Positions 2,953-15,268 of a stretch of DNA of 20,415 nt are shown piece by piece. Positions within the stretch are counted from its first letter, which is position 1. The number at the start of each line of letters is the position of its first letter. The notes below the pieces were generated by a model. That model saw nothing but the letters and a program-made list of their open reading frames with translations, did not search any database and was not told the origin of the DNA. The DNA comes from a virus. The stretch lies in IMG/VR virus record IMGVR_UViG_3300025009_000406, positions 1 to 20,415 of that record. One strand, given 5' to 3'. Made by a program: the position numbers and the translations under genes.

Positions 2953-3420
2953 TTACTTAATATTTATTCTTGCAAACTCACCAAATAGTTCTTTTGCTTT
3001 TTTATCATAGGCTTTTGCTGCATTAATTAATTTTTTAAAATATCCTAAAGATATCCTTTTATGATTAAAACCAATTCTTACGTGCCATAATTTCCAACGC
3101 TTATGCCAAGAAACGCCTTTATACCCACTTGTACTATTTTTCCTTATTTTGTTATTCCATGCATTCTGTTGTGCATTTACTATTCTTAAATTACTTTTCG
3201 TATTATTTAATCCATTTCTATCAATATGATCAGTAAATATTTTGGGATTATCCAATTTTAAAATTATTCTGTGCATTAGAAAATATTTATTATTCCATTT
3301 TCCTTTAGGATAACCTGTAGCATAGCCTTGATTATAAAACCACTTATATTGATTTAGTCTTTCAAAGTCTTCTTTATCTATTAAGGCGTATTTATTTTGA
3401 GTTAATTTAATTTGTTTCAT
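2953..3420 (-). CDS. HNH endonuclease with AP2-type DNA-binding domain
   Basis: A 155-residue free-standing homing-type endonuclease. Residues 1-45 hold the N-terminal segment common in this group (LTQNKYALIDKEDFERLNQY). Residues about 50-92 carry the HNH core: MHRIIL, then DHIDRNGLNNTKSNLRIVN, where D-H supplies the metal and general base residues and N-x-x-x-N-L-R the second part of the beta-beta-alpha metal fold. Residues about 97-150 form an AP2/ERF-like DNA-binding domain (GYKGVSWHKRWKLWHVRI, then SLGYFKKLINAAKAYDKKAKELFGE). Homing enzymes of this kind cut an allele lacking them and spread by repair. The gene sits between two membrane-protein genes and is not obviously inside an intron. 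Confidence 0.92.
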   Translation of the reverse strand: MKQIKLTQNKYALIDKEDFERLNQYKWFYNQGYATGYPKGKWNNKYFLMHRIILKLDNPKIFTDHIDRNGLNNTKSNLRIVNAQQNAWNNKIRKNSTSGYKGVSWHKRWKLWHVRIGFNHKRISLGYFKKLINAAKAYDKKAKELFGEFARINIK

Positions 3421-3809: not shown

Positions 3810-4318
3810 ATAAATCTGTCAAAATTATCTAGCATAACTTTTAAATCAGATTTTGAGAATTTGGTAATTGAGTGTGCCACAACTTCAAGGTCTCTGAAGC
3901 TATCCTCTCCTAATTTTTTAATCATATAGTTGTAATACCACTCCCCCGGTTGTTTAAAATGTTCCAAATGATAATAATGGCAACCCCAACAAGCAAGATC
4001 GCAATTAGCAAAATTCCAGCGAGTCGAAATGTAACGGCGGGAAAAATAATGAGTAACTCCGGCATTCTTTTTGACTAAACCACACTTAATACACTCTCCT
4101 TTAGCCTTCTCCTTAACCAAGTCAGAACATAACTTATCAAGTTTTTTTATTAAGTTCGGTCTTGTCATTCCTCTTTCCTGTTTTAAATACTTTTTTACTA
4201 TTTTTAAGTTAGATTTTTTACTAAGTAAGATAGTATGTTTTTTGGGACAAATAAATTCGGTTGCGAATCTATAAACCATATAGTATTTTTTGCATCTCTT
4301 ACAAAATCTTTTTCTCAT
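3806..4318 (-). CDS. ninG: NinG/Rap-like recombination nuclease
   Basis: A 170-residue protein related to the phage lambda NinG (Rap) family, which helps phage recombination by acting on branched DNA. An N-terminal cysteine cluster (CKRCKKYY ... CPKKH) precedes the diagnostic core: CIKCG, then THYFSRRYISTRWNFAN, then CWGCHYYHLEHF and a C-terminal YNYMIKKLGE. The Cys pairs and His/Asn residues form an HNH-like zinc fold. I chose ATG 4318, which overlaps the upstream TGA as ATGA; a longer frame from TTG 4345 is open but would overlap the upstream gene by 31 bases. It is joined by ATGA to the next membrane-protein gene. Being beside an SSB-like gene fits a replication/recombination module. Confidence 0.82.
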   Translation of the reverse strand: MRKRFCKRCKKYYMVYRFATEFICPKKHTILLSKKSNLKIVKKYLKQERGMTRPNLIKKLDKLCSDLVKEKAKGECIKCGLVKKNAGVTHYFSRRYISTRWNFANCDLACWGCHYYHLEHFKQPGEWYYNYMIKKLGEDSFRDLEVVAHSITKFSKSDLKVMLDNFDRFI

Positions 4319-5004
4319 AGTCCTATATCCATTGATCTCCGACAATTAAATATTTTATAATATGCAGTTTGTTTTAAACTTATAGGGAAAGAGTCTGTTT
4401 TTTTATGACAAGTAAAACATAATGTTCTTCCATTATTAACATCTAATCTTAATTCTGGATATAAAGAAAATGGTTTTATATGATCTGCTTGCAGAAGTCC
4501 TCCTTTTTTAAAACAGATTACACAAGTGTAAGTGTCTCTTTCAAAAACTTTTCTTCGCCATATTTTATATTCTAAAGTTTGCCTCAAGGCTCTAGATAAT
4601 TTTGTTGCTCCATTATTCCAATTCCAATGATTTTTTCCTCTTGTTTTTAAGTTCGGTTTTCCAATTCTAACTTTAGTAAGTTTGTCGATCCATTCTTTAG
4701 TCATTTTTTTACCTTTATTCCAACCTCGTCCTAGCTTTAAACCTTTAGTATTTTTAGGTATCTTTCCGACATTCCACTTAGCTTGACATTTTCTACTACA
4801 AAACCTTTTTTTATTTATTCTTGATTTAGAAATATAAAATTTCTTTCTACAATTTAAACATTTAATTTCTACCCCATTCTTATTTTTCTTATTAAATATA
4901 ACAGACGCACAGCTTCTAGAACAACAGAATGTTTTATATTTTTTTAGTCTCCAACTATTCTTTATTTCAATCTTCTTCTTACAATTCACACATTTAGTAA
5001 TCAT
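4315..5004 (-). CDS. Free-standing HNH homing endonuclease with zinc fingers and NUMOD-like region
   Basis: A 229-residue protein. Two N-terminal zinc-finger-like units (CVNCKKK...CCSRSCAS and CLNCRKKF...FCSRKCQAKW) are followed by a NUMOD3-like basic linker (KGKKMTKEWIDKLTKVRIGK) and an HNH domain: WRRKVFERDTYTCVIC, then LQADHIKPF, then NNGRTLCFTCHKK. The CxxC pairs bind structural zinc and the DH supplies catalysis. It is inserted between a lysozyme-like gene and ninG with an ATGA overlap at both ends. Its last residues, CRRSMDIGL, mirror the last residues of the upstream gene, CRRSIDLNL, with largely different codons. This looks like a scar of insertion at the 3' end of a homologous gene. 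Confidence 0.92.
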   Translation of the reverse strand: MITKCVNCKKKIEIKNSWRLKKYKTFCCSRSCASVIFNKKNKNGVEIKCLNCRKKFYISKSRINKKRFCSRKCQAKWNVGKIPKNTKGLKLGRGWNKGKKMTKEWIDKLTKVRIGKPNLKTRGKNHWNWNNGATKLSRALRQTLEYKIWRRKVFERDTYTCVICFKKGGLLQADHIKPFSLYPELRLDVNNGRTLCFTCHKKTDSFPISLKQTAYYKIFNCRRSMDIGL

Positions 5005-5633
5005 AAGTTTAAATCAATAGAACGTCTACACATTGGTTCTCTTCTACCATTATTGTACAGACAGACAGCTTCTGCATAACTCATTCCCGCATCCAGTCTT
5101 TTATTGAACCACTTGGTAAATGTATCTCTTTGATCCTTCTCATCCTTAAAACAGAATTTTTTATTGCCTTCGACTAAATACCCGATTTGATTTACCTTCC
5201 CTATTGATTCACAATAGACATGAGTTGAACTCAAATCTTGATTAAATCCAATCTCACTCTCCAGATATCTTGTAACCTGATAAATTCTTTCAACTAATGC
5301 CATCCTTTGCTGGGATATTAAAATTTGCTCATCTACCGCCTGTTTTCGGGGCTTTTCCCCTTTTATCGGTGTTCGATACCTTATTTCTATCTTTACTGGA
5401 AATTTAAGCGTAATTTCAATAGGTTTAGGAAATGTTACCTTATGTTCATCATACCATTCGCTCATTTGTCTAAATAGATACCAAGAAAAAGCAAAGGCTA
5501 ATCCCATTCCGAGAAGTATTGACAGCAACTTCAATTTCCACATATTTCTTTTAATGCTTTGTTTAGCTTTCTTTGCTTCTTTCTGAATTGGATGTGTGTT
5601 ACTCTCTAGTTGTTTTATGAGTTTATAATTCAT
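5001..5633 (-). CDS. Membrane-anchored lysozyme/transglycosylase-like protein (putative)
   Basis: A 210-residue protein. The N-terminal 35 residues are basic, followed by one membrane helix at about 35-54 (LLSILLGMGLAFAFSWYLF) and a C-terminal domain of about 150 residues with paired cysteines. Within it, VYCESIGKVNQIGYLV could place a catalytic Glu, and EAVCLYNNG resembles the AxYNxG segment of SLT-type lysozyme folds. I infer a membrane-anchored muralytic enzyme for peptidoglycan passage or lysis, at moderate to low confidence. It ends CRRSIDLNL with TGA overlapping the ATG of the HNH gene. The start ATG 5633 lies 11 bases inside the preceding 46-residue frame. Confidence 0.65.
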   Translation of the reverse strand: MNYKLIKQLESNTHPIQKEAKKAKQSIKRNMWKLKLLSILLGMGLAFAFSWYLFRQMSEWYDEHKVTFPKPIEITLKFPVKIEIRYRTPIKGEKPRKQAVDEQILISQQRMALVERIYQVTRYLESEIGFNQDLSSTHVYCESIGKVNQIGYLVEGNKKFCFKDEKDQRDTFTKWFNKRLDAGMSYAEAVCLYNNGRREPMCRRSIDLNL

Positions 5634-5975: not shown

Positions 5976-6517
5976 AAGGGAATATCTTTAGGATCTACAT
6001 TTTCCGTTCCTTCTTTGCTGAAAGGATCATCACCGGAAAATAGAGCCTCTAAATTTATAAATGTTTCTTTGAACTTTTTTGCTATATCTGGATCAAGTTT
6101 TTTGGGCGGTCTTGGATTAACTTGATATTCAGTATCCATTCCCTCTCCTTCTCTAGTTACGACTACATCGTATTCTAGTGGTGACCCCCAATTTTCCTCA
6201 TCGTCTATCAAAGCTTTCAAGCTTTTAATAATTCCTTTCTGCTTAACTTCCAATATCTGAACCCGTTTCTCCTGATAATTCCAGACCGGAAAAGCCCAGA
6301 AATGTTTAACACCTTCAGCCGAAGTATCATTTAGAGATACTTCTTCTATGGTATGTTTTCTGACAGGCTTTCTGTCTTTAGTTCCTTCCTGCCCCGTCCA
6401 ATATTCCCATCCGGTAATGGCTGATCCTAAAATTCTAAAAGCGTTCGCACCTATTCCCCATCTCATGTAGTTTCCTACATCTTTTGGTACGTTATAGTTC
6501 TTTGGTAAAAAGTCCAT
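5972..6517 (-). CDS. Phage single-stranded DNA-binding-like protein
   Basis: A 181-residue protein. The pattern NYNVPKDVGNYMRWGIGANAF near the start, GWEYWTGQ, then HFWAFPVWNYQEKRVQILEV and YDVVVTREGEGMDTEYQV matches a phage family usually annotated as a putative ssDNA-binding protein. It is beta-rich, OB-fold-like, and its acidic C-terminal tail (ENVDPKDIPF) resembles the terminal DDDIPF of bacterial SSB that docks partner proteins. I chose ATG 6517, which lies in a TAATATG junction; upstream in-frame starts (TTG 6586, ATG 6571) would add a hydrophobic stretch not expected in this family. Expected role: coating ssDNA in replication and recombination, with the NinG-like nuclease nearby. Confidence 0.78.
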   Translation of the reverse strand: MDFLPKNYNVPKDVGNYMRWGIGANAFRILGSAITGWEYWTGQEGTKDRKPVRKHTIEEVSLNDTSAEGVKHFWAFPVWNYQEKRVQILEVKQKGIIKSLKALIDDEENWGSPLEYDVVVTREGEGMDTEYQVNPRPPKKLDPDIAKKFKETFINLEALFSGDDPFSKEGTENVDPKDIPF

Positions 6518-6518
6518 A

Positions 6519-6623
6519 TTATCTTGTTTGATAAAAACTTGTAAAATCATCGAAATAGCTGTAAATATCATTGTAATAAGGATCAAATGTTACCATGATC
6601 ATCCAGTATAGTTTTTTTAACAT
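6519..6623 (-). CDS. Aromatic, acidic microprotein (34 aa)
   Basis: A 34-codon frame (MLKKLYWMIM then TFDPYYNDIYSYFDDF) fits exactly between two TAATATG junctions: its ATG follows the TAA of the 57-residue gene, and its TAA precedes the ATG of the SSB-like gene. It is unusually rich in Tyr, Phe and Asp. The frame may be a leader that couples translation of the SSB-like protein and not a functional peptide. Low to moderate confidence. Confidence 0.4.
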   Translation of the reverse strand: MLKKLYWMIMVTFDPYYNDIYSYFDDFTSFYQTR

Positions 6624-6624
6624 A

Positions 6625-6798
6625 TTAAAATGATAAAACTTTTAATTCCTGAAGTGTTTTTTCCATTTCATCTGCTAGAGCTAATAACTCCGTTTGTAGG
6701 TCTTGCTTGCCTGTCATTTTGGCTAAACCTATTAGCTTACCTAAAAGAAAATATAGGTATCCGGGATCTCTCTTTACAATCTCTTTTTTATTTTTCAT
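6625..6798 (-). CDS. Small helical protein (57 aa)
   Basis: A 57-codon frame, beginning MKNKKEIVKRDPGYLYFLLGKL, with predicted amphipathic helices throughout (QDLQTELLALADEMEKTLQE). It starts in a TAATATG junction after the HTH gene and ends in another. A frame on the opposite strand over the same bases (6630-6818) is a hydrophobic shadow with no operon context. Function unknown; being downstream of an excisionase-like HTH gene suggests a regulatory or recombination accessory role. Confidence 0.55.
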   Translation of the reverse strand: MKNKKEIVKRDPGYLYFLLGKLIGLAKMTGKQDLQTELLALADEMEKTLQELKVLSF

Positions 6799-6799
6799 A

Positions 6800-7003
6800 T
6801 TATTTATTTAATTTATAACGATTTCTAATAAATGTTGGAACTTCTAACCAGTCGCTTTCTGAGACATACCACTCATTGACCATAAACCTATTTACGTCTT
6901 GTTTGCCTTTTAGTTTGCCTGCCCTTACCCATCTATAAAGTGTCATATATGGAACGCCAAACTTTTTGCCTAGTTCTTTTAGTGAATACATTTTGTCAAT
7001 CAT
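6800..7003 (-). CDS. MerR/excisionase-type HTH protein
   Basis: A 67-residue DNA-binding protein. YSLKELGKKFGVPYMTLYRWVRAGKLKG is a MerR-like winged helix-turn-helix start (helix, tight turn, recognition helix with YRW, wing), and VNEWYVSESDWLEV is the usual second part in excisionase-like proteins. It is short enough to be only the DNA-binding domain. A good leftward promoter ends about ten bases before ATG 7003, so the message may have almost no leader. It likely regulates phage development or bends DNA for recombination; no integrase is visible in the window. Confidence 0.8.
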   Translation of the reverse strand: MIDKMYSLKELGKKFGVPYMTLYRWVRAGKLKGKQDVNRFMVNEWYVSESDWLEVPTFIRNRYKLNK

Positions 7004-7012
7004 ATGTTACTA

Positions 7013-7041
7013 AGTGTAAACGATCATTAAAGTCTTGTCAA
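7013..7041 (-). promoter_or_regulatory. Sigma70-type promoter for the HTH gene (near-leaderless)
   Basis: Leftward TTGACA (7041-7036), 17 bases, then TACACT (7018-7013). The predicted start near 7005 is only about two to four bases before ATG 7003. A GATCATT direct repeat on the plus strand at 7022-7028 and 7045-7051 brackets the -35, so it could be an operator. The -35 is perfect; the -10 matches four of six. Confidence 0.55.
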
Positions 7042-7065
7042 TAGGATCATTTATATCAAACTACA

Positions 7066-7419
7066 TCATATCTTACTCTGAACTTCCTTCCAAGCCCTTA
7101 AAAGTTGTTCCTTGCCTTTAAGATTAAATCCCTCATCTTTAACCTCAAAATCTTTCTTATTATCATACTTAGGAGTCAGTAAGTAAAGCATCATGGGTTT
7201 AGGTTTAAGATAATATCTATATATAATGCGTCCTTCTTTCTTAATCTTTCTAGGGTTGGCGTACGTTATACCGTAGGGAGTTGTTATTTCAAGTATCGCA
7301 AGGTCTTTGATAGCAGATTTAATATGTTTGACATATATCCCACAATCGCCCTTCTTTACTTTCTCGGTGGGGATGTCTATATTAAATGGTTTTCTTATCT
7401 CAAGGCGATAAGTTTTCAT
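7066..7419 (-). CDS. Hypothetical beta-rich protein
   Basis: A 117-residue protein with alternating strands (MKTYRLEIRKPFNIDIP, then LAILEITTPYGITYANP, then IIYRYYLKPKPMMLYLLTP) and a C-terminal helix KGKEQLLRAWKEVQ. ATG 7419 overlaps the TGA of the small ribbon-helix-helix gene, so the two are probably produced together. Genes following an RHH protein in this way are sometimes toxins of antitoxin pairs, but no toxin-family motif is evident here. Unknown function. Confidence 0.65.
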   Translation of the reverse strand: MKTYRLEIRKPFNIDIPTEKVKKGDCGIYVKHIKSAIKDLAILEITTPYGITYANPRKIKKEGRIIYRYYLKPKPMMLYLLTPKYDNKKDFEVKDEGFNLKGKEQLLRAWKEVQSKI

Positions 7420-7547
7420 TTTGTCTGATTGATATTGTCTACTATCAACCTTCTTAAATACTCAGAAAAAGACATACCGTAGCGTTTACGTTCTTTATTT
7501 ATATAGTTTATCTGCTCTTTAGGGAGGGTTATTGTTTTTTTAATCAT
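7416..7547 (-). CDS. Ribbon-helix-helix DNA-binding protein (43 aa)
   Basis: A 43-codon frame: IKKTITLPKEQINYINKE, then GMSFSEYLRRLIVDNINQ. This is the Arc/CopG ribbon-helix-helix pattern: a basic beta strand (KKTITLP), helix A, a turn with Ser-Glu, and helix B. ATG 7547 overlaps the TGA of the 618-residue gene and its TGA overlaps the ATG of the next gene. An alternative ATG at 7553 adds two residues. RHH proteins bind short repeats as dimers and often repress their own promoter; the AGTATAC repeats in the operon promoter are a candidate site (inference). Confidence 0.75.
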   Translation of the reverse strand: MIKKTITLPKEQINYINKERKRYGMSFSEYLRRLIVDNINQTK

Positions 7548-9400
7548 TGCCATAATAATTTTATTATGCTGTCTTTTTCCAAAATCTCAGGAGAAAGATC
7601 AATTTCACAATTATTTTTGTCAGTTAATTTGGCTCCTGCTTCTACTAACATTTCATTTAAATTGAAAGCGTTTTTATAAAATCCTAGAAGATATTTTCGG
7701 CTATGTTCTACAAAGTCTGAGCTAGATGAGGTGATTGACCTTCCAAGATAAATTTCTGAGAAATAGAATCGGCATTCGTTAGTTGTTACAGACAGGAGTC
7801 CTAGTATTTTTTGCTTTTGATTTATCTTTGATTCAGCTTGAGCAATAATGTTATTAGAATTAACCATATAGTTTTTTCTCATATTTACAGCTTGTTCTTT
7901 GGCTACAAATATTTTTATCGGTACTTCTACATCTTTATCATGGTTGTAATAATTAACAGCTACTATGAAAGAATTTTTAGTTTGTCTTTTAATATAAAAT
8001 AACTCGCTTGCTCCGTTTTGAGCGTCTGTCATGTCGCCTGAAAATAATATGTTACCTTCTTCACTTCTATAGTTTGCATCCCAACCAAATTTACCGTCTA
8101 CATTGATTAAAGAAAAATCTAAGTCTATTCTATTGTTACCAACATTATCCCAGTGGACTCCAACTATCATATCTTTTGGAATAGAAATATAAGTCCCTGA
8201 TGGAAAATATCCTGTAAATTGTTTTTCTGTTGCGGATAGAGCGTAAACTATATTTTCTGGAATATAAATATTCTTACCTTTTACTTGTTTCCCTATATCC
8301 TCAATAATGGATTTTTTAACAATCTCTAAAACTCTTCCGGCTTCTGACCTATTGCTGAAATTAAATTCAGTTGCGTATCCTTTACCATTTCTTATCTTAT
8401 AGAGAATTGATCCTATATCTTTAGTTCTGTAGGTTAGAGCGTAAGCTAAACGTATTTTTCTAAATATATTAGCCCTAGATAATGAGTCTTTAAGTAATTT
8501 CTCGTCTACCAATTCAATGTTTGCAGTTATTGTATTTAAGTAATCCTCCTCCATAGGTTTATGATTTTTAACTGCTAGTTTTCTAATTTTATTGATCATC
8601 TTTTTTAATTGGCTATTAGTTCTGAAGGCTAAGAATAAGGGTTTAAATCTGTAGAATATAGAAGACAGTTTTTCAAGTCCATGTTTTTCTTTATACTTTA
8701 ACACTAGCTTGGTAACTCCTAGATTTTGTTTTTCCTTAATCTTTTCTATTAGCTCCTCATTTTTAATAATTAAAGTAGTTTCTGTTGATTTGTAAATAAT
8801 ATATCTCAAGAACTCTACCGGATTTTCTGGAACTAATCCTAAATATTCATATAGAGCGGTTTTAACCTCCTTGTTCTTAATTTCCTGTATCTCTTTCTCG
8901 TTCAACTCAACAAATAGGGCAACATTTGTTACATCTTTTAGCGTTTCTTCTTTTAGTGCAATCCCCGTTTGAAGTAGATTTAATAATTTAACTTTCAACT
9001 CTTCTTTGGTGTAACCCTTAATTACTATTAATTTTATTTTATCTAAATCAATATCAGGAACATTTAATGCCTCGCTTGGTATGTAAACGTAATCTTTATC
9101 GTATATTCCTAAGTTTTCCAATCCGTAAGTTGTGAAGTAATGAATGAGCTGTTCTATTACCAGTTGTTCAATACTTGCTGTTATTATCTTCTGCCATGAC
9201 TTATGAAAGGAACTATTTAATTCTTCACCGGATAATCCTATTTTCAGTTTAAGTAGTTCTTGATCGCTATAATTGGAAAATACTTCAGGAGAAAAGATAA
9301 AACCACGTTTAATTGTATCAGCGGTTACTTGTTCATTAAGTTTACTCTTACTTTTAGTCTTAATAGGAAGTGCTTTAAATAATCTTATGGTGCTTTCCAT
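7544..9400 (-). CDS. Large TerD-domain-like protein (MXAN_6230/SCO0854-like)
   Basis: A 618-residue cytoplasmic protein, first gene of the leftward operon. Residues about 1-390 are mainly helical with no recognised catalytic site. Residues about 400-540 resemble the TerD-like domain seen in MXAN_6230/SCO0854 proteins: YFPSGTYISIPKDMIVGVHW, then RIDLDFSLINVDGKFGWDA with the Asp-Leu-Asp calcium-site pattern, then LFSGDMTDAQNGASELFYI. TerD domains belong to tellurite-resistance and stress systems linked to phage inhibition and to Ca2+-dependent assemblies; their biochemical role is unsettled. ATG 9400 lies about 55 bases after a predicted start site and is preceded by a 5' hairpin, with no Shine-Dalgarno. 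As the promoter-proximal gene, it may be an early takeover or exclusion protein (inference). Confidence 0.72.
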   Translation of the reverse strand: MESTIRLFKALPIKTKSKSKLNEQVTADTIKRGFIFSPEVFSNYSDQELLKLKIGLSGEELNSSFHKSWQKIITASIEQLVIEQLIHYFTTYGLENLGIYDKDYVYIPSEALNVPDIDLDKIKLIVIKGYTKEELKVKLLNLLQTGIALKEETLKDVTNVALFVELNEKEIQEIKNKEVKTALYEYLGLVPENPVEFLRYIIYKSTETTLIIKNEELIEKIKEKQNLGVTKLVLKYKEKHGLEKLSSIFYRFKPLFLAFRTNSQLKKMINKIRKLAVKNHKPMEEDYLNTITANIELVDEKLLKDSLSRANIFRKIRLAYALTYRTKDIGSILYKIRNGKGYATEFNFSNRSEAGRVLEIVKKSIIEDIGKQVKGKNIYIPENIVYALSATEKQFTGYFPSGTYISIPKDMIVGVHWDNVGNNRIDLDFSLINVDGKFGWDANYRSEEGNILFSGDMTDAQNGASELFYIKRQTKNSFIVAVNYYNHDKDVEVPIKIFVAKEQAVNMRKNYMVNSNNIIAQAESKINQKQKILGLLSVTTNECRFYFSEIYLGRSITSSSSDFVEHSRKYLLGFYKNAFNLNEMLVEAGAKLTDKNNCEIDLSPEILEKDSIIKLLWQ

Positions 9401-9408
9401 AATTTAGT

Positions 9409-9455
9409 AAGGCGGGAAGTAAAAAAAGCATTTTATTAGGAACTTCCTATGCCTT
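9409..9455 (-). promoter_or_regulatory. 5'-terminal stem-loop in the leader of the leftward operon
   Basis: In the leftward RNA, AAGGC pairs with GCCUU and GGAAGU with ACUUCC across a small internal loop (arms 9455-9442 and 9420-9409), enclosing a U-rich loop of about 21 bases. The predicted transcription start falls on the first base of the stem, and the stem ends eight bases before ATG 9400. A short 18-codon frame starting at ATG 9431 overlaps the gene start and could be a leader peptide. A terminal hairpin can protect mRNA or gate initiation. Confidence 0.5.
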
Positions 9456-9461
9456 GCTTAC

Positions 9462-9480
9462 AGTATACAGATAGTATACT
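9462..9480. promoter_or_regulatory. Candidate operator: AGTATAC repeats spaced 11 bases
   Basis: AGTATAC occurs at 9462-9468 and again at 9473-9479, where it extends to the palindrome AGTATACT. The 11-base step puts both on the same helix face, and one copy covers the -10 box. A dimeric repressor such as the ribbon-helix-helix protein of this operon could bind here. This is inference; no binding data can be derived from sequence. Confidence 0.45.
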
Positions 9481-9490
9481 ACATTGTCAA
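9462..9490 (-). promoter_or_regulatory. Strong sigma70-type promoter of the leftward operon
   Basis: Leftward TTGACA (9490-9485), exactly 17 bases, then TATACT (9467-9462): perfect -35 and five of six at -10. The predicted start is near 9455, giving a 5' leader of about 55 bases before the 618-residue gene. No other promoter this good is seen for the operon. Confidence 0.8.
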
Positions 9491-9499
9491 CTGTATTTA

Positions 9500-10230
9500 T
9501 CTTAAGCTAAGTATTGATTTCCAAGCATAGATCTTAGATCCTTATTTGGGTTAAGGTTTCGTAAGGTCTGTTTATCCGTTGTATCTCGGCAAACCTCTAG
9601 ATCTATCTCTCCTGCCTAGTTGTGATTTAACAATCGTGCAAGGTCGGGGTACGTTAAGATCTAATTAAACTACACCGTACATACTCGATTTCCTTAGCTG
9701 AGTCTTGAGTCCCTATTCCCCAATACTTTTTTTATACTGGTTCGTTTCCAGTGCCGTTGGGGGCTGTCGCTTTGGTCGGCTTAATTTATATGATTTATAG
9801 TAGTTATAGAAATCCGGTGAGGAAGTTTTTAGAAGTTGTCTGACGAAGATTATTTTATTTTTAACCGAGTCGTTCATAAAAAAACGAGCTTTGTGAAATT
9901 GGCAGGCGTAACACCAGTTTGGCAAGGTATTCCCTTACCAACTTCACAAAACTCGTTCTATAGTGTTACTTCCTTCAGCCCCTTGCCTAGGCTGGCCCAC
10001 TGCATCGGTGGGAGGTTTGTCGTCCCCTTTTTATCTTCTTTAACTCTATCCAAGCGTACTCGCCTTCGCAATTAAACTTGAATAGGATTAAAAAAGATAA
10101 CCCCCTAATATGAGCGACCTAGAATAAATGCGTTAGGTAAAGAATAGATCCTAAGACAGTTCTTTACGATCCGACTTAAAATCCTAGACTCGTCTGATTG
10201 AGTAATTGAAACGAACAAAAAAACTCAATC
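9500..10230 (-). ncRNA. Candidate large structured non-coding RNA
   Basis: This tract of about 730 bases holds no convincing gene, yet a near-consensus leftward promoter fires into it. The predicted RNA would open with an 8-base-pair hairpin (10230-10223 with 10203-10196) and then form several stems. These are UAGGAUU/AAUCCUA (10186-10180 with 10089-10083) enclosing GUAAAGAA/UUCUUUAC (10167-10160 with 10144-10137), CCCAC/GUGGG (10012-9996 region), CAGCC/GGCUG (9994-9976), a 20-pair stem at 9957-9883, and CCCCAA/UUGGGG enclosing ACUGG/CCAGU (9762-9718 region). In the 20-pair stem the two non-Watson-Crick positions are G.U in the leftward RNA but C.A in the rightward one, which favours this strand. 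The 3' end is uncertain; a U-tract near 9880 could end it early. Large phage RNAs such as GOLLD and ROOL are possible relatives, but I cannot test this. Confidence 0.5.
9878..9957 (-). terminator. Long 20-bp stem followed by U-tract (possible terminator or RNA core)
   Basis: In the leftward RNA the arm AACGAGUUUUGUGAAGUUGG (9957-9938) pairs over all 20 bases with 9902-9883, including two G.U pairs. The loop can form a GGUAAGG/CCUUGCC hairpin that shares two bases with the outer stem. The right arm runs into seven U (9884-9878). This could end the RNA that starts near 10230, or be an internal domain of a longer structured RNA. A leftward frame (9925-9713) and a rightward frame (9836-10075) crossing it are judged spurious. 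Confidence 0.5.
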
Positions 10231-10532: not shown

Positions 10533-10539
10533 ATTATTG

Positions 10540-11001
10540 GTGAACTATCTTAATAAAGTTTCAAACTCTATCATAAACTCAATCAAAAAAGGGGGCAAAC
10601 TTCTTATCTGCGGAAATGGAGGATCAGCCGCCCAAGCAATGCACTTCGCTGCCGAACTGATAGGCAAATATCAGTATGGGATGTTGGAGCGAAGAGGACT
10701 ACCTGCTATCGCCCTAACCGCAAACGTTTCCTCCTTAACCGCCATAAGTAATGACTGGGGTTTTGATTACGTCTTTTCCCGACAGGTCGAGGCTCTGGGA
10801 AATAAAGGGGATATCCTTTTTGTTATCTCAACCTCCGGCAAATCAAGAAACTGTCTTGAGGCCGTTAAGATTGCTAGAGAAAAAGGCTTAGAGGTTATTG
10901 ATTTGGCAAGAAATCACGGTAAGACTGCGGCCGAGATTCAAGAATACCAATTGAAATTAATTCATCAGTTAACGGGAAAAATTGAGAAAGCCTTTTTATG
11001 A
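10540..11001 (+). CDS. gmhA: Sedoheptulose 7-phosphate isomerase (phosphoheptose isomerase)
   Basis: A 153-residue SIS-domain enzyme that converts sedoheptulose 7-phosphate to D-glycero-D-manno-heptose 7-phosphate, the first step of heptose synthesis. The phosphate-binding segment KLLICGNGGSAAQAMHFAAE and the second SIS segment GDILFVISTSGKSRNCLEA are intact. The Glu of FAAEL and the His of KLIHQL align with the two catalytic residues known in bacterial GmhA. It is shorter than the usual 190 or so residues: the N-terminal helix is trimmed and a segment between DLARNHG and AEIQEYQ is missing. I chose GTG 10540; TTG 10537 is directly before it. Its TGA overlaps the ATG of a 24-residue microprotein. 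Its base composition looks richer in G and C than the early genes, hinting at separate acquisition. Confidence 0.9.
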   Translation: MNYLNKVSNSIINSIKKGGKLLICGNGGSAAQAMHFAAELIGKYQYGMLERRGLPAIALTANVSSLTAISNDWGFDYVFSRQVEALGNKGDILFVISTSGKSRNCLEAVKIAREKGLEVIDLARNHGKTAAEIQEYQLKLIHQLTGKIEKAFL

Positions 11002-11072
11002 ATAACTTTATTATTATTGCAAGCACTATGGCAATTGCAGTATTTTATTTATTAATTAGATTAGGAAAATGA
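10998..11072 (+). CDS. Hidden 24-residue membrane microprotein between gmhA and hddA
   Basis: A 24-codon frame, MNNFIIIASTMAIAVFYLLI then RLGK, fills the gap between gmhA and hddA exactly. Its ATG overlaps the gmhA TGA (ATGA, 10998-11001) and its TGA overlaps the hddA ATG (ATGA, 11069-11072). Almost the whole peptide is one transmembrane helix. The double overlap is hard to explain by chance. It may act as a real membrane microprotein or merely carry ribosomes from gmhA to hddA; AGGA just before the hddA ATG is too close to be a good ribosome-binding site on its own. Confidence 0.6.
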   Translation: MNNFIIIASTMAIAVFYLLIRLGK

Positions 11073-12013
11073 GAGTTTCAGCTATTGCTCCAACTAGAAT
11101 TTCTCTTTTCGGTGGCGGAACTGATGTAGACCCTTACGCCTCGGAATTTGGAGGCGCAGTAATTAATTTGGCTATAAATATAAGGCAGCACCTAATTTTA
11201 TATACTAAAGACGACATCTGGAATCCGGAAAGTTCATTTAATAGTTTTCCCAACGGAGCAGACCCCAATTTCTACTTTAATATTTTGAAATCCTACAAAC
11301 TTAATGGAGGACACCAGACAAAAATCGTTTCCCGCTATGACGGATTCATAAAATCAGGTCTTGGTTCGTCTGGGGCAGCGGGAGTTAGTTTGGTTGGGGC
11401 TATCAATAAAGCATTTTCTTTAGGCATGACAAGGCACGAAATAGCAGAAAACGCCTGGCAAAACGAGATAGACTTTGGTATTTATACAGGCAAACAGGAT
11501 CAGTTCGCTTCAGTTTACGGGGGATTAAACTACTTCAGTTTCAGCGATAAAGTTGAGGTAGTTAAAATCACTCCGCCCCCCGAACTTACAAATTGGATGG
11601 TTCTTTTCTATACGGGAGGCGAAAAGAAAGACCACAATGTCCAAAAGGGATTCATCAATCCCGACAGGAAAAAGTTAAGAGCTTTAGATACCTTGAAATA
11701 CATAACCGGACTCGCCCTTCCTTTGTTTTTAACTGGAAAATGCAAAGAAATAGGCGAGCTTCTGGATTTAAGCTGGCAATATAAAAAGAAGTCCAATAAA
11801 GTCACAAACGACAGAATTGACGATATCTATTCTTTGGCAAAAGATGAAGGGGCGATAGGGGGAAAGATCTGTGGGTCGGGTGGAGGAGGCTATATGTTTT
11901 TTATGTGTCCGCCTGAGAAAAGGGAAAATTTGGTAAGAAAAATGAGGAATTTCAAGATTGGACAAGTTGATTTTAATATAGATTTTGGGGGATTAGATGT
12001 AAGAGTCTTATGA
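11069..12013 (+). CDS. hddA: D-glycero-D-manno-heptose 7-phosphate kinase (GHMP family)
   Basis: A 314-residue GHMP kinase. It has all three family motifs: APTRISLFGGGTDVDPY near the N-terminus (substrate side), KSGLGSSGAAGVSLVGAIN near residue 92-110 (the ATP phosphate loop) and GGKICGSGGGGYMFF near residue 263-277. GKQDQFASVYGG is typical of heptose/fucose-type members. HddA phosphorylates D-glycero-D-manno-heptose 7-phosphate at C1 with ATP, giving the alpha-1,7-bisphosphate. It starts on an ATGA overlap with the membrane microprotein and ends on an ATGA overlap with an HNH gene. Length is close to normal. The direct product of GmhA is its substrate, so the cassette makes biochemical sense. 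Confidence 0.93.
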   Translation: MRVSAIAPTRISLFGGGTDVDPYASEFGGAVINLAINIRQHLILYTKDDIWNPESSFNSFPNGADPNFYFNILKSYKLNGGHQTKIVSRYDGFIKSGLGSSGAAGVSLVGAINKAFSLGMTRHEIAENAWQNEIDFGIYTGKQDQFASVYGGLNYFSFSDKVEVVKITPPPELTNWMVLFYTGGEKKDHNVQKGFINPDRKKLRALDTLKYITGLALPLFLTGKCKEIGELLDLSWQYKKKSNKVTNDRIDDIYSLAKDEGAIGGKICGSGGGGYMFFMCPPEKRENLVRKMRNFKIGQVDFNIDFGGLDVRVL

Positions 12014-12387
12014 GAGATTTAAAAGGTAGATTTATAAAAGGGAATAAAGGTTTTTGGTTAAATAAGAAACGACCTAATCTAATACAAACTGGGGCTGTAA
12101 AAACAATGTTTAAGAAAGGCCAAAACATAGGAGAAGAAAATATTGAATGGCGAGGAGATAAGGTAGGGTACTATGCTTTACATAGTTGGTTAAAAAGAAA
12201 TTACGGAAAGCCAGATATTTGTAGAGAATGTGGATCTATAAAGAATGTTCAATGGGCTAATTTAAGTTATAAATATAAGAGGGATATTGATGATTGGATT
12301 AAATTATGTTATCGCTGTCATAGAGTATATGACAGAATGAATGGATGGGGATTAGCTAGTCTCAAGTTTAAAGAATTACAAAGATAA
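12010..12387 (+). CDS. HNH endonuclease-like protein inside the heptose cassette
   Basis: A 125-residue protein. A NUMOD-like basic N-terminus (LKGRFIKGNKGFWLNKKRPN) is followed by a compact HNH-like core: YYALHSWLKRNYGKP, then CRECG, then VQWANLSYKYKRDIDDWI, then LCYRCHRVYDR. The CxxC...CxxC zinc site is present; the usual DH is replaced by WAN-type residues, as in a common group of small phage HNH-like proteins, so activity is uncertain. It splits hddA from hddC while keeping tight coupling: ATGA with hddA and TAATATG with hddC. Probably a selfish insertion tolerated because the operon remains readable. Confidence 0.85.
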   Translation: MRDLKGRFIKGNKGFWLNKKRPNLIQTGAVKTMFKKGQNIGEENIEWRGDKVGYYALHSWLKRNYGKPDICRECGSIKNVQWANLSYKYKRDIDDWIKLCYRCHRVYDRMNGWGLASLKFKELQR

Positions 12388-12388
12388 T

Positions 12389-12922
12389 ATGCGTGCTCTA
12401 TGTCTCTGTGCTGGTTATGGTTCACGTTTGGGGGACCTTACCAAAAATAGGCCTAAACCAACTATTGAAATAAATGGGAGGTCAATAATAGATCATATTG
12501 TATCAAAGTTACACATTCATGGGATAACCGAGATCATTGTAAATTTGCATTATTTAGAAAATATGATGACTAATCATTTACAAGATAATGTTCTATATTT
12601 TTATGAGCCTAGACTTCTAGGCCATAAAGGAACGATATTGGCTTTAAGAAAATGGTTGGAAGATGAGGATTTTTTAGTCATAAATGGTGATACTCTTTCA
12701 ACCTTAAATTACACTTCAATGATAATGGCACATAAAAGCGGAATGATTACTTCTTTTATGGATGAAAATAGGGCGGCTGGCACTTGGATATATCCACCGC
12801 TTTATTTTAAAGATCAAAATTTACCTATTAATCCCTATCGTGATCCAATAATTAAATGGTTTGATTTAGGAACGAAAGAGCGGCTTGAGGAGGCTAAAAA
12901 ATATTTTAATCAAAATGAATAA
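12389..12922 (+). CDS. hddC: Minimal sugar-1-phosphate nucleotidyltransferase (HddC-like)
   Basis: A 177-residue nucleotidyltransferase. The signature CAGYGSRLGDLTKNRPKPTI (usually AGxGTRLxPLTxxxPKP) binds the nucleotide, FLVINGDTL supplies the metal-binding Asp, and FDLGTKERLEEAKKYF is the usual C-terminal DhGTxErhxxA motif. In the HddA pathway the expected reaction is heptose 1-phosphate plus GTP to GDP-D-glycero-alpha-D-manno-heptose; specificity cannot be proven from sequence. It is shorter than the usual 220-240 residues, with the segment between the metal site and the C-terminal motif condensed. It is separated from hddA by an HNH gene. The phosphatase GmhB, needed before this step, is not in the window. 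Confidence 0.82.
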   Translation: MRALCLCAGYGSRLGDLTKNRPKPTIEINGRSIIDHIVSKLHIHGITEIIVNLHYLENMMTNHLQDNVLYFYEPRLLGHKGTILALRKWLEDEDFLVINGDTLSTLNYTSMIMAHKSGMITSFMDENRAAGTWIYPPLYFKDQNLPINPYRDPIIKWFDLGTKERLEEAKKYFNQNE

Positions 12923-13178
12923 ATACATAGTCTGTAAAACCTGTCTTGCAAACGGTAAATACCCGCAAACTCTTGGAATTATAGACGATTATGGGATATT
13001 GAATATTAAACGGGTCAACAAGCTTTCAACTATAATAGGAGGAGCAGAGTTAACTTTAACTTGTGACCAATGCCAAAGTTCAGTTGTTATAAAGATACTA
13101 AGAAAGCAGCCCGCACCTAAAAACATTGTAGGGACAATATCTGTTGAGGAGACGGAGTTTAAATATCAATGGTCATGA
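12915..13178 (+). CDS. Zinc-ribbon protein downstream of hddC
   Basis: An 87-residue protein with CKTC near residues 7-10 and CDQC near 49-52, a classic two-knuckle ribbon, with beta strands between and a basic C-terminal half. I chose ATG 12915, which overlaps the hddC stop by eight bases; an in-frame ATG at 12885 would overlap hddC by 38 bases. Its TGA overlaps the next ATG (ATGA 13175-13178). Function unknown, perhaps transcriptional or replication accessory. Confidence 0.7.
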   Translation: MNKYIVCKTCLANGKYPQTLGIIDDYGILNIKRVNKLSTIIGGAELTLTCDQCQSSVVIKILRKQPAPKNIVGTISVEETEFKYQWS

Positions 13179-13309
13179 AATATATAAAATTAGTGCTCCA
13201 ATTCTTGTTTTTGATTATCGGTTTAACAATTTGGGGAGTTTTTTCCATTTTATATACCGCTTGGAAAAAAGCGCATGGAATACAGGTTGATAATGCCGAT
13301 TTGACATGA
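13175..13309 (+). CDS. Single-span membrane microprotein (44 aa)
   Basis: A 44-codon frame with one membrane helix (VLQFLFLIIGLTIWGVFSIL) at residues 7-26, a short basic loop and an acidic end. ATG 13175 overlaps the preceding TGA and its own TGA overlaps the next ATG (ATGA at both ends). It resembles other microproteins in the window in topology only. Function unknown. Confidence 0.6.
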   Translation: MKYIKLVLQFLFLIIGLTIWGVFSILYTAWKKAHGIQVDNADLT

Positions 13310-13470
13310 GATCAATAAGGGTGAGTGAATTAATGTTCCAATACGAGAAACTTCAAAAGAAGAGAATCCAAGCATTTGAAAATGATAATAAAATAGTTAT
13401 TTATTTTAGAAACAGAGAAGATAAGGTTGAAGATATTAAAGTAATTGACAAACAAAAAAATAAGGTATAA
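13306..13470 (+). CDS. Small charged protein (54 aa)
   Basis: A 54-codon frame beginning MRSIRVSELMFQYEKLQKKR and continuing with strands (NKIVIYFRNRED, then IKVIDKQKN). It starts on ATGA with the membrane microprotein and is the last gene before the late promoter-terminator element; the -35 of that promoter is inside its last codons. Function unknown. Confidence 0.55.
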   Translation: MRSIRVSELMFQYEKLQKKRIQAFENDNKIVIYFRNREDKVEDIKVIDKQKNKV

Positions 13471-13473
13471 GAT
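13445..13473 (+). promoter_or_regulatory. Promoter upstream of the packaging genes
   Basis: TTGACA (13445-13450), 17 bases, then TAAGAT (13468-13473); TATAAG at 13466 with 15-base spacing is an alternative -10. The predicted start near 13480 is about 25 bases before a terminator-like hairpin. The perfect -35 is the best part of the evidence. Confidence 0.5.
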
Positions 13474-13504
13474 ATATTTGTTCAAACAACGTGTAATTTA
13501 TAGG

Positions 13505-13527
13505 ACACCGGATAGGTGTTTTTTTTT
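13505..13527 (+). terminator. Intrinsic terminator-like hairpin abutting the terminase small-subunit ATG
   Basis: ACACC (13505-13509) pairs with GGTGT (13515-13519) around a five-base loop; weaker pairs can extend it. Eight further T (13520-13527) run straight into ATG 13528. The stem is short, so termination may be partial. There is no Shine-Dalgarno before the ATG: the U-tract occupies that place. The layout (promoter, short leader, terminator, late genes) resembles antitermination-controlled late switches such as lambda pR'-tR'. Confidence 0.6.
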
Positions 13528-13974
13528 ATGTCAGGCAAACTTTACGATCCAAGCAAAAACTACGAAAACTTAGCAAATGAGTATCTTGCAACTTGTGGAA
13601 GGGAGCAAACCAAGCTTCCAAAGATAAGTCAATTCTGTCGAGAATATATTGGGGCAAATGAAGATACTGTTAATTTATGGTTAAAAAAAGATTGGGAAGA
13701 AAAGACAGATAACTTCGGAGCAATAAAAAAAGCAATCAGTAAAATCAAAGAAGTGCAGAAAGAACAACTAATGGATGACGGGCTTTACGGAGGCAAAGAA
13801 GTCAACAATGCAATGGCAATATTTATCTTGAAAGCAAACCATAATATGGTTGAAACCGAAAGAAAAATGTTTGTCGGTGGGGAAAATAATGAACCGATAG
13901 AAATTAGAATAATATCAGAAAATGGCAATAGATTTAACGATAAAGAACTTCCCGAAGCAACAGAGCATATTTGA
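13528..13974 (+). CDS. terS: Terminase small subunit
   Basis: A 148-residue protein. The N-terminal part (QTKLPKISQFCREYIGANED, then TVNLWLKKDW) is a homeodomain-like HTH that recognises the packaging site. The middle IKEVQKEQLMDDGLYGGKEV and NAMAIFILKANHNMVETE are the usual oligomerisation helices of phage small terminases. The C-terminal tail is expected to contact the large subunit. I chose ATG 13528, not GTG 13516, because the latter lies inside the terminator stem. Its last 53 bases overlap the large-subunit gene. It sits directly before terL, as is normal. Confidence 0.85.
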   Translation: MSGKLYDPSKNYENLANEYLATCGREQTKLPKISQFCREYIGANEDTVNLWLKKDWEEKTDNFGAIKKAISKIKEVQKEQLMDDGLYGGKEVNNAMAIFILKANHNMVETERKMFVGGENNEPIEIRIISENGNRFNDKELPEATEHI

Positions 13975-15268
13975 CAGTCAGTCTAAATATGCAATAGCTG
14001 TTAAAGGAAGACGATTTGGATTAACCAAAGGCGCAGCCAACGATTTCATCAAATGCGCCATAGAGAAGAAATTCAGCAAAGGATTATGGGTAGATACAGT
14101 CAACTCAAACATAGACAAATATATAGAGCGTTATTTTATTCCGCACCTTAACAAACTGCCAAAAAGAGTCTGGAATTGGCGAAAGCAGGCCAAGATGATT
14201 GTGATAAATGGCGCATATATTGATTTCAGGTCAGCCGATACACCAGAGACAATGGAGGGATTTGGTTATGATAAGGCTTTCCTAAACGAAGCTGGAATAA
14301 TTTTGAAAAACGAATACCTGTGGGATAATGCGATAAGGCCGATGTTCTGGGACTATCCGAATGTCAAGGTTGTGATAGGAGGCACACCAAAAGGCAAGGG
14401 TAAGTTCTACCAGCTTTACCAAAGGGGGCTAGATCAAACGCAAAAGAGCTATCAAGCGTTTCACTTCACTTCGTTCGATAGCCCGTTTGAACACATACAT
14501 CAGGCGATAAGAGAGGATATGGCCTCAATGCCTGAACAGGTAATTGAACAGGAGATATACGCAAAGTTCTTAGAGGATACAGGCGTAGTTTTTAGGGATT
14601 TTCTCTCAATAATGGATGCCATACCTAATAAGCCAATTATAGGGCATAGATACATCATAGGAGTTGATTTGGCTAAAGTTGAGGATTTTACAGTCTTAGC
14701 GGTTTACGATACGTTTAACAATAAACAGGTATATCAGGCAAGGTTTAACAAAATAGATTGGGGCATGCAAAAGGCAAGGATTGCCGAGACAGCGAGGCAT
14801 TTTAACGATGGATCATCTCCTAGGTCTAATCCTGCATCGGTTGTCATTGATGCTACAGGTTTAGGCGATCCGATTGTTGACGATCTGGCAAGGATGGGAA
14901 TACCAGTTGATCCCATAAAGTTCACAAATGATCAGAAGAGGCAGTTAATCGAGAAGTTGGTAAATTGGATAGAGCTTAAACGAGTTCATTTATTACCTAT
15001 CCAAGAGACTAAAGTTGAATTGAGCAATTTCACCTATGATATTTCAGAGACGACAGACAGAGTGCGTTACGAGGCACCAGTTGGTTTTTACGATGATATT
15101 GTGATTGCACACGCTCTGGCAGTTTGGCGACTTAATGTTAAAGAGAAAGTATTACAAGTTATTCCTAAAACTAGGATTAGATTAAGTTATGAAAGGCAAC
15201 TTAAAGAGAGGGAGATTGATCAAGGTATTGAAATCCCCACAGGTGAATGGGTTGAGTGGGGAGCGTGA
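13922..15268 (+). CDS. terL: Terminase large subunit (ATPase and nuclease)
   Basis: A 448-residue packaging motor that pumps DNA into the prohead and cuts it. The ATPase domain has a degenerate Walker A, KGRRFGLTKGAAND near residues 29-42 (Leu where many relatives have Lys), and a Walker B-like YDKAFLNEAG near 116-125. The coupling motif VVIGGTPKGKGK follows. The C-terminal RNase H-like nuclease has three acidic sites: IGVDLAKVEDFT, VVIDATGLGD and GFYDDIVIAHALAVW. Gene length is typical. It overlaps terS by 53 bases and the next frame by about 26, showing dense late-operon packing. Confidence 0.95.
   Translation: MAIDLTIKNFPKQQSIFDSQSKYAIAVKGRRFGLTKGAANDFIKCAIEKKFSKGLWVDTVNSNIDKYIERYFIPHLNKLPKRVWNWRKQAKMIVINGAYIDFRSADTPETMEGFGYDKAFLNEAGIILKNEYLWDNAIRPMFWDYPNVKVVIGGTPKGKGKFYQLYQRGLDQTQKSYQAFHFTSFDSPFEHIHQAIREDMASMPEQVIEQEIYAKFLEDTGVVFRDFLSIMDAIPNKPIIGHRYIIGVDLAKVEDFTVLAVYDTFNNKQVYQARFNKIDWGMQKARIAETARHFNDGSSPRSNPASVVIDATGLGDPIVDDLARMGIPVDPIKFTNDQKRQLIEKLVNWIELKRVHLLPIQETKVELSNFTYDISETTDRVRYEAPVGFYDDIVIAHALAVWRLNVKEKVLQVIPKTRIRLSYERQLKEREIDQGIEIPTGEWVEWGA

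Follow-up and report, generated by a model that had tools for sequence, protein, structure and literature searches.

Why does an HNH endonuclease gene of an uncultured phage end in nearly the same nine residues as the gene upstream of it? The question was raised by a locus in IMG/VR record IMGVR_UViG_3300025009_000406, of which the whole stretch analysed here (20,415 nucleotides) is called the window. On the minus strand, an open reading frame for 210 amino acids (5633-5001, hereafter the host gene) is followed by the HNH endonuclease gene (5004-4315, 229 aa) and then by a ninG-like gene (4318-3806, 170 aa). An earlier note on this DNA had reported an ATGA overlap at both junctions, and direct reading of the sequence located these 4-bp overlaps at 5001-5004 and 4315-4318.

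The two gene ends and the genes that carry them

The host gene ends with CRRSIDLNL-TGA (5001-5030, minus strand), and the HNH gene ends with CRRSMDIGL-TGA (4315-4344, minus strand). Both ends were located in the sequence by pattern match. The first is in frame with the host gene and the second forms an in-frame fusion with the HNH gene, which lies between these two homologous copies of a C-terminus; the ninG-like gene starts in the overlap after the second copy. The last codons are TGT AGA CGT TCT ATT GAT TTA AAC TTA TGA (CRRSIDLNL*) in the host gene and TGT CGG AGA TCA ATG GAT ATA GGA CTA TGA (CRRSMDIGL*) in the HNH gene. Six of the nine residues are identical and seven of the nine codons differ, in agreement with the likeness in mostly different codons that had first drawn attention to the locus. 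At the DNA level, 19 of 30 nucleotides are identical with the stop codon included (63%), against 67% in protein. The similarity begins at the cysteine, and no alignment was found before it.

Synonymous sites between the two ends were close to saturation (pS 0.86, against pN 0.27; Fisher p = 0.027 in a small sample of nine codons). The copies are diverged in DNA and conserved in protein, the pattern by which C-terminal duplications of fungal mitochondrial mORFs are recognised, here over few codons. Retention of residues together with near-saturation of synonymous sites is expected if, in different phages, both tails evolved as the end of one and the same gene, and the contrast between pS and pN weakly favours such divergence over decay in place. 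The whole case is built on nine codons.

The HNH protein has a cysteine-rich N-terminal region and an HNH domain at residues 161-202. It matched PF01844 (E 2.1e-7, 31.4 bits against a gathering score of 21.4) and phrog_1271 (E 7.8e-22), while its single-sequence structure model was poor (pLDDT 36). The ninG-like protein matched PF05766 NinG (E 2.8e-6, 27.7 bits against a cut-off of 25.4) and phrog_5034 (E 1.8e-17).

The host gene had been described as lysozyme-like, a label that found no support in Pfam or PHROGs: no lysozyme or SLT family was matched, nor any other convincing family of either database. The protein, which has an N-terminal helix at residues 3-63 in a low-confidence single-sequence model (pLDDT 57), is probably membrane-anchored and has no convincing family. 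Positional analogues near SSB in two other loci, L006 and L012, do match an SLT domain, and have a CES motif and a cysteine near the end in common with the host protein. The description as lysozyme-like comes from position and motif only and is not established by sequence. A pairing of the tail cysteine with the CES cysteine, as in the analogues, is a possibility that the weak alignment does not allow us to assert. As a separate observation, L006 contains several ORFs of a repeated unit like DKYTKEEHKASKPSADEMRSWNWDN, scattered between unrelated genes at 11790-14636, and in L012 the ORFs at 6072-7118 and 9327-10061 include extended stretches of low complexity (SAESAWSAGSA and AAWAARAAEAA repeats).

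Likeness of the two ends compared with chance

The likeness was compared with chance in a mechanically defined set of 313 non-overlapping ORFs, drawn from the window and from related loci, whose nine C-terminal residues were scored by end-anchored BLOSUM62 in all 48,516 pairs. The two tails, a pair picked for its likeness, scored 36, and all other pairs that scored at least 30 were orthologous or identical genes. No random pair among 20 million reached 36, and the same result was obtained in 20 million random draws against the host-gene tail. Even when the final leucine was left out, the pair still scored 32, whereas pairs not evidently homologous reached at most 26. The two tails are therefore very probably homologous, as judged from sequence, and not a coincidence.

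We also searched for the tails with a degenerate pattern back-translated from these two sequences, which can show rarity elsewhere and has no independent significance. It matched twice in the window and never in shuffled sequences. Elsewhere in IMG/VR, the only match was one sequence present in six contigs, in a frame of 10 amino acids. In 257 Gb of genomes there were 11 matches, against roughly 15 estimated by chance; CRRS[IM]D was absent from all of them, and a single one lay in a frame of more than 25 codons. Since the pattern is rare in both collections, the CRRS-D tail is not a widespread C-terminal motif, and we rejected the candidate explanation of a motif frequent in proteins or of a frequent DNA element, for which the matches were too few.

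The earlier note had counted HNH homologues with the same end at unrelated sites as evidence against its own reading. Five homologues and ten more all end in residues other than CRRSMDIGL. In several of them, a short stretch near the C-terminus aligns with YYKIFN, which directly precedes CRRSMDIGL in the window protein, and the homologue stops shortly afterwards. C-terminal length varies in this family, with a comparable extension in L046, so the nine extra residues are not striking in themselves; a fusion of CRRSMDIGL onto the HNH protein is plausible from the alignment. The comparison of HNH and upstream gene ends covered 13 further phage loci, those of three among the five homologues and of the ten more; no HNH gene there shared its end with the upstream gene, the best end-anchored score being 14 against 36 here. 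Copied ends as a usual property of phage HNH genes were rejected on this count (0/13). Separately, the HNH gene at 1006-1761 in L053 (Pseudomonas phage KIL1) overlaps both neighbours, by 4 bp upstream, and it and its upstream gene both end in ELT, three residues only.

Origin of the second copy

We propose that the HNH gene is a free-standing homing endonuclease gene that entered the host gene nine codons short of its stop codon, at what would have been the original ATGA junction of that gene with ninG. The incoming DNA would have brought, before the endonuclease start codon, the diverged last nine codons from a related phage, which would have restored a functional end, CRRSIDLNL, to the host gene. 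What had been the native end, CRRSMDIGL-TGA-ninG, would now lie further downstream as the final nine codons of the endonuclease gene, and this gene would keep a stop codon and the ATGA coupling to ninG. In this hypothesis, the predicted enzyme would cut the end of the host gene, and the changed codons would make the element resistant to the enzyme it encodes. We consider it reasonably likely that the HNH gene was inserted with a diverged replacement end and that the native end was displaced to its 3' end. The insertion event, the assignment of the foreign end, cutting at the host-gene end and self-protection are all what we infer from the arrangement.

The closest known arrangement is in fungal mitochondria, where mORFs with C-terminal duplication have been described in Allomyces atp6 and in Glomus atp6, atp9, cox2 and nad3 (PMC3630166; mORFs are also discussed in PMC4019555). 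In those cases too, an endonuclease gene stands between a replacement C-terminus on the host gene and a displaced second C-terminus (PMC3630166). The copies likewise differ more in DNA than in protein: for the two C-termini of Glomus atp6, identity is 63.5% at the DNA level and 91% at the protein level (PMC3630166), compared with 63% and 67% in this phage. The fungal enzymes, however, are of the LAGLIDADG or GIY-YIG type, whereas the phage enzyme is HNH. The duplicated ends are about 51 to 240 bp long in fungi and 27 bp plus the stop codon in the phage, where the second copy is read as part of the endonuclease. Relatives show the downstream copy to be the native one in fungi (PMC3630166), whereas no empty-site relative was found for the phage case. 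By this precedent, CRRSIDLNL would have arrived with the endonuclease and CRRSMDIGL would be the displaced native end.

Phage endonuclease genes offer partial parallels. In the passages of PMC2988022 consulted, the T4-like mob and seg genes are free-standing homing endonuclease genes, lying between phage genes with a start that overlaps the upstream stop, as in the UAAUGA overlap of nrdA/mobE, and flanking coconversion is established for phage homing; those passages do not describe a duplicated host-gene end. Cluster O mycobacteriophages differ in whether they carry an HNH gene, which lies beside a stop codon or where a start and a stop overlap, as in the window, but these are simple insertions 1-3 bp after the terminase stop or cases with a disrupted tape-measure start, and a copied end is not described (PMC4351075). 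In the open-licence literature we found no phage case of a copied host-gene end; a copied end around an endonuclease is known from fungal mitochondria, and we found no report of it from phages.

The second copy could instead have arisen within one genome, by target duplication or slippage that doubled the host-gene end when the HNH gene entered, with the copies diverging in place. Duplications at insertion sites are common, and a second phage is not required by this explanation. However, one would not expect a copy that had become part of an endonuclease to keep the residues of the host gene for as long as pS 0.86 with pN 0.27 implies. This objection is weakened by the small sample and by selection of the case by a reader who had seen the protein similarity, and we regard local duplication as unlikely rather than negligible.

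The sequence fits equally well with an HNH gene that had gained its tail in another phage, through fusion with the 3' end of a gene homologous to the host gene, and then landed behind an intact host gene, in which case CRRSIDLNL would be native and CRRSMDIGL foreign. This is the nearest to what the earlier note had worded, but it demands that the insertion fell exactly at an intact stop codon and kept two ATGA overlaps, and it runs against the fungal precedent, in which the downstream copy is the native one; we judge it quite improbable. An accidental match or convergence of two unrelated C-termini is very improbable, since no random pair in 2e7 and no unrelated pair among the 48,516 reached 36 and the scores remain apart without the final leucine, even though only nine residues are involved, the ATGA overlap fixes A as the third base of the last codon and thereby partly dictates the leucine, and the earlier reader had been searching for patterns.

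The broader proposal of homing from a homologous gene in another phage is thus upheld in part: homologous tails, diverged codons, a probable exchange tract of 93 bp and the empty site of another HNH gene (both described below) speak for it, while the direction may be the reverse of that first worded. More generally, and tentatively, phage homing endonucleases may be able to bring a recoded replacement 3' end: the invaded gene would remain whole, synonymous changes would remove the enzyme's target, and the native end would be joined to the endonuclease. If this is true, the locus would be a phage counterpart of the fungal mitochondrial mORFs, and it would illustrate how a free-standing endonuclease invades the coding part of a useful gene and leaves it unharmed without an intron or intein. 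It would also provide a small searchable signature, an endonuclease gene that ends in a diverged copy of the end of its upstream gene, with which phage genomes could be screened for earlier homing and for recent gene exchange.

Relatives, a probable exchange tract and other endonuclease genes

Relatives of the host gene were sought in IMG/VR, genomes, phages and plasmids, and the only one found was in L003, a phage of the same genus with 80% DNA identity over structural genes, whose contig stops at residue 114 of the host gene. Searches of IMG/VR with ninG and the HNH gene confirmed nothing. An SSB-based search gave nine loci, none with a detectable orthologue of the host gene, and a terminase-based search yielded pieces of this same phage, together with relatives in which the junction was not covered or a different gene stood there. 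Across the host-gene, SSB- and terminase-based searches, no relative lacking the HNH gene and covering the junction of the host gene with ninG was found.

When the host gene was compared with L003, DNA identity was 47-57% over residues 11-50 and 100% over the last 93 bp covered (5290-5382 on the minus strand, corresponding to L003 15413-15505). No other exact match between the two phages is as long as this tract, the next being 60 bp, and in the other genes compared, codon identity at conserved residues is just 0.48-0.69. It is visible up to about 260 bp from the insertion, on the side nearest to it. The simplest reading of the sequence is a recent exchange with an edge near 5382, running towards the insertion, which fits what flanking co-conversion or gene exchange would leave. 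A sequence common to two phages of one sample may be the reason why the L003 contig stops at this place. The tract could also come from ordinary phage recombination or, because it ends at the contig end, from an assembly joint.

A second, small HNH-like gene (12010-12387) is located at the ATGA junction between hddA and hddC. In L003 this site is empty: hddA and hddC overlap by 4 bp with nothing between. Presence and absence at the same site in relatives was thus observed for this gene, and its insertion left no copied end. In the locus G002, too, no HNH gene separates the hddA-like gene from the hddC-like gene.

The window has a third endonuclease-like gene at 2953-3420, which codes for a protein with HNH and AP2 domains, and a 618-aa protein without a convincing Pfam or PHROG match is encoded at 7544-9400. 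The region 10537-12922 contains a heptose-type sugar gene set, with phosphoheptose isomerase-like, kinase-like and nucleotidyltransferase-like genes by sequence appearance, and the set is also present in L003 and G002.
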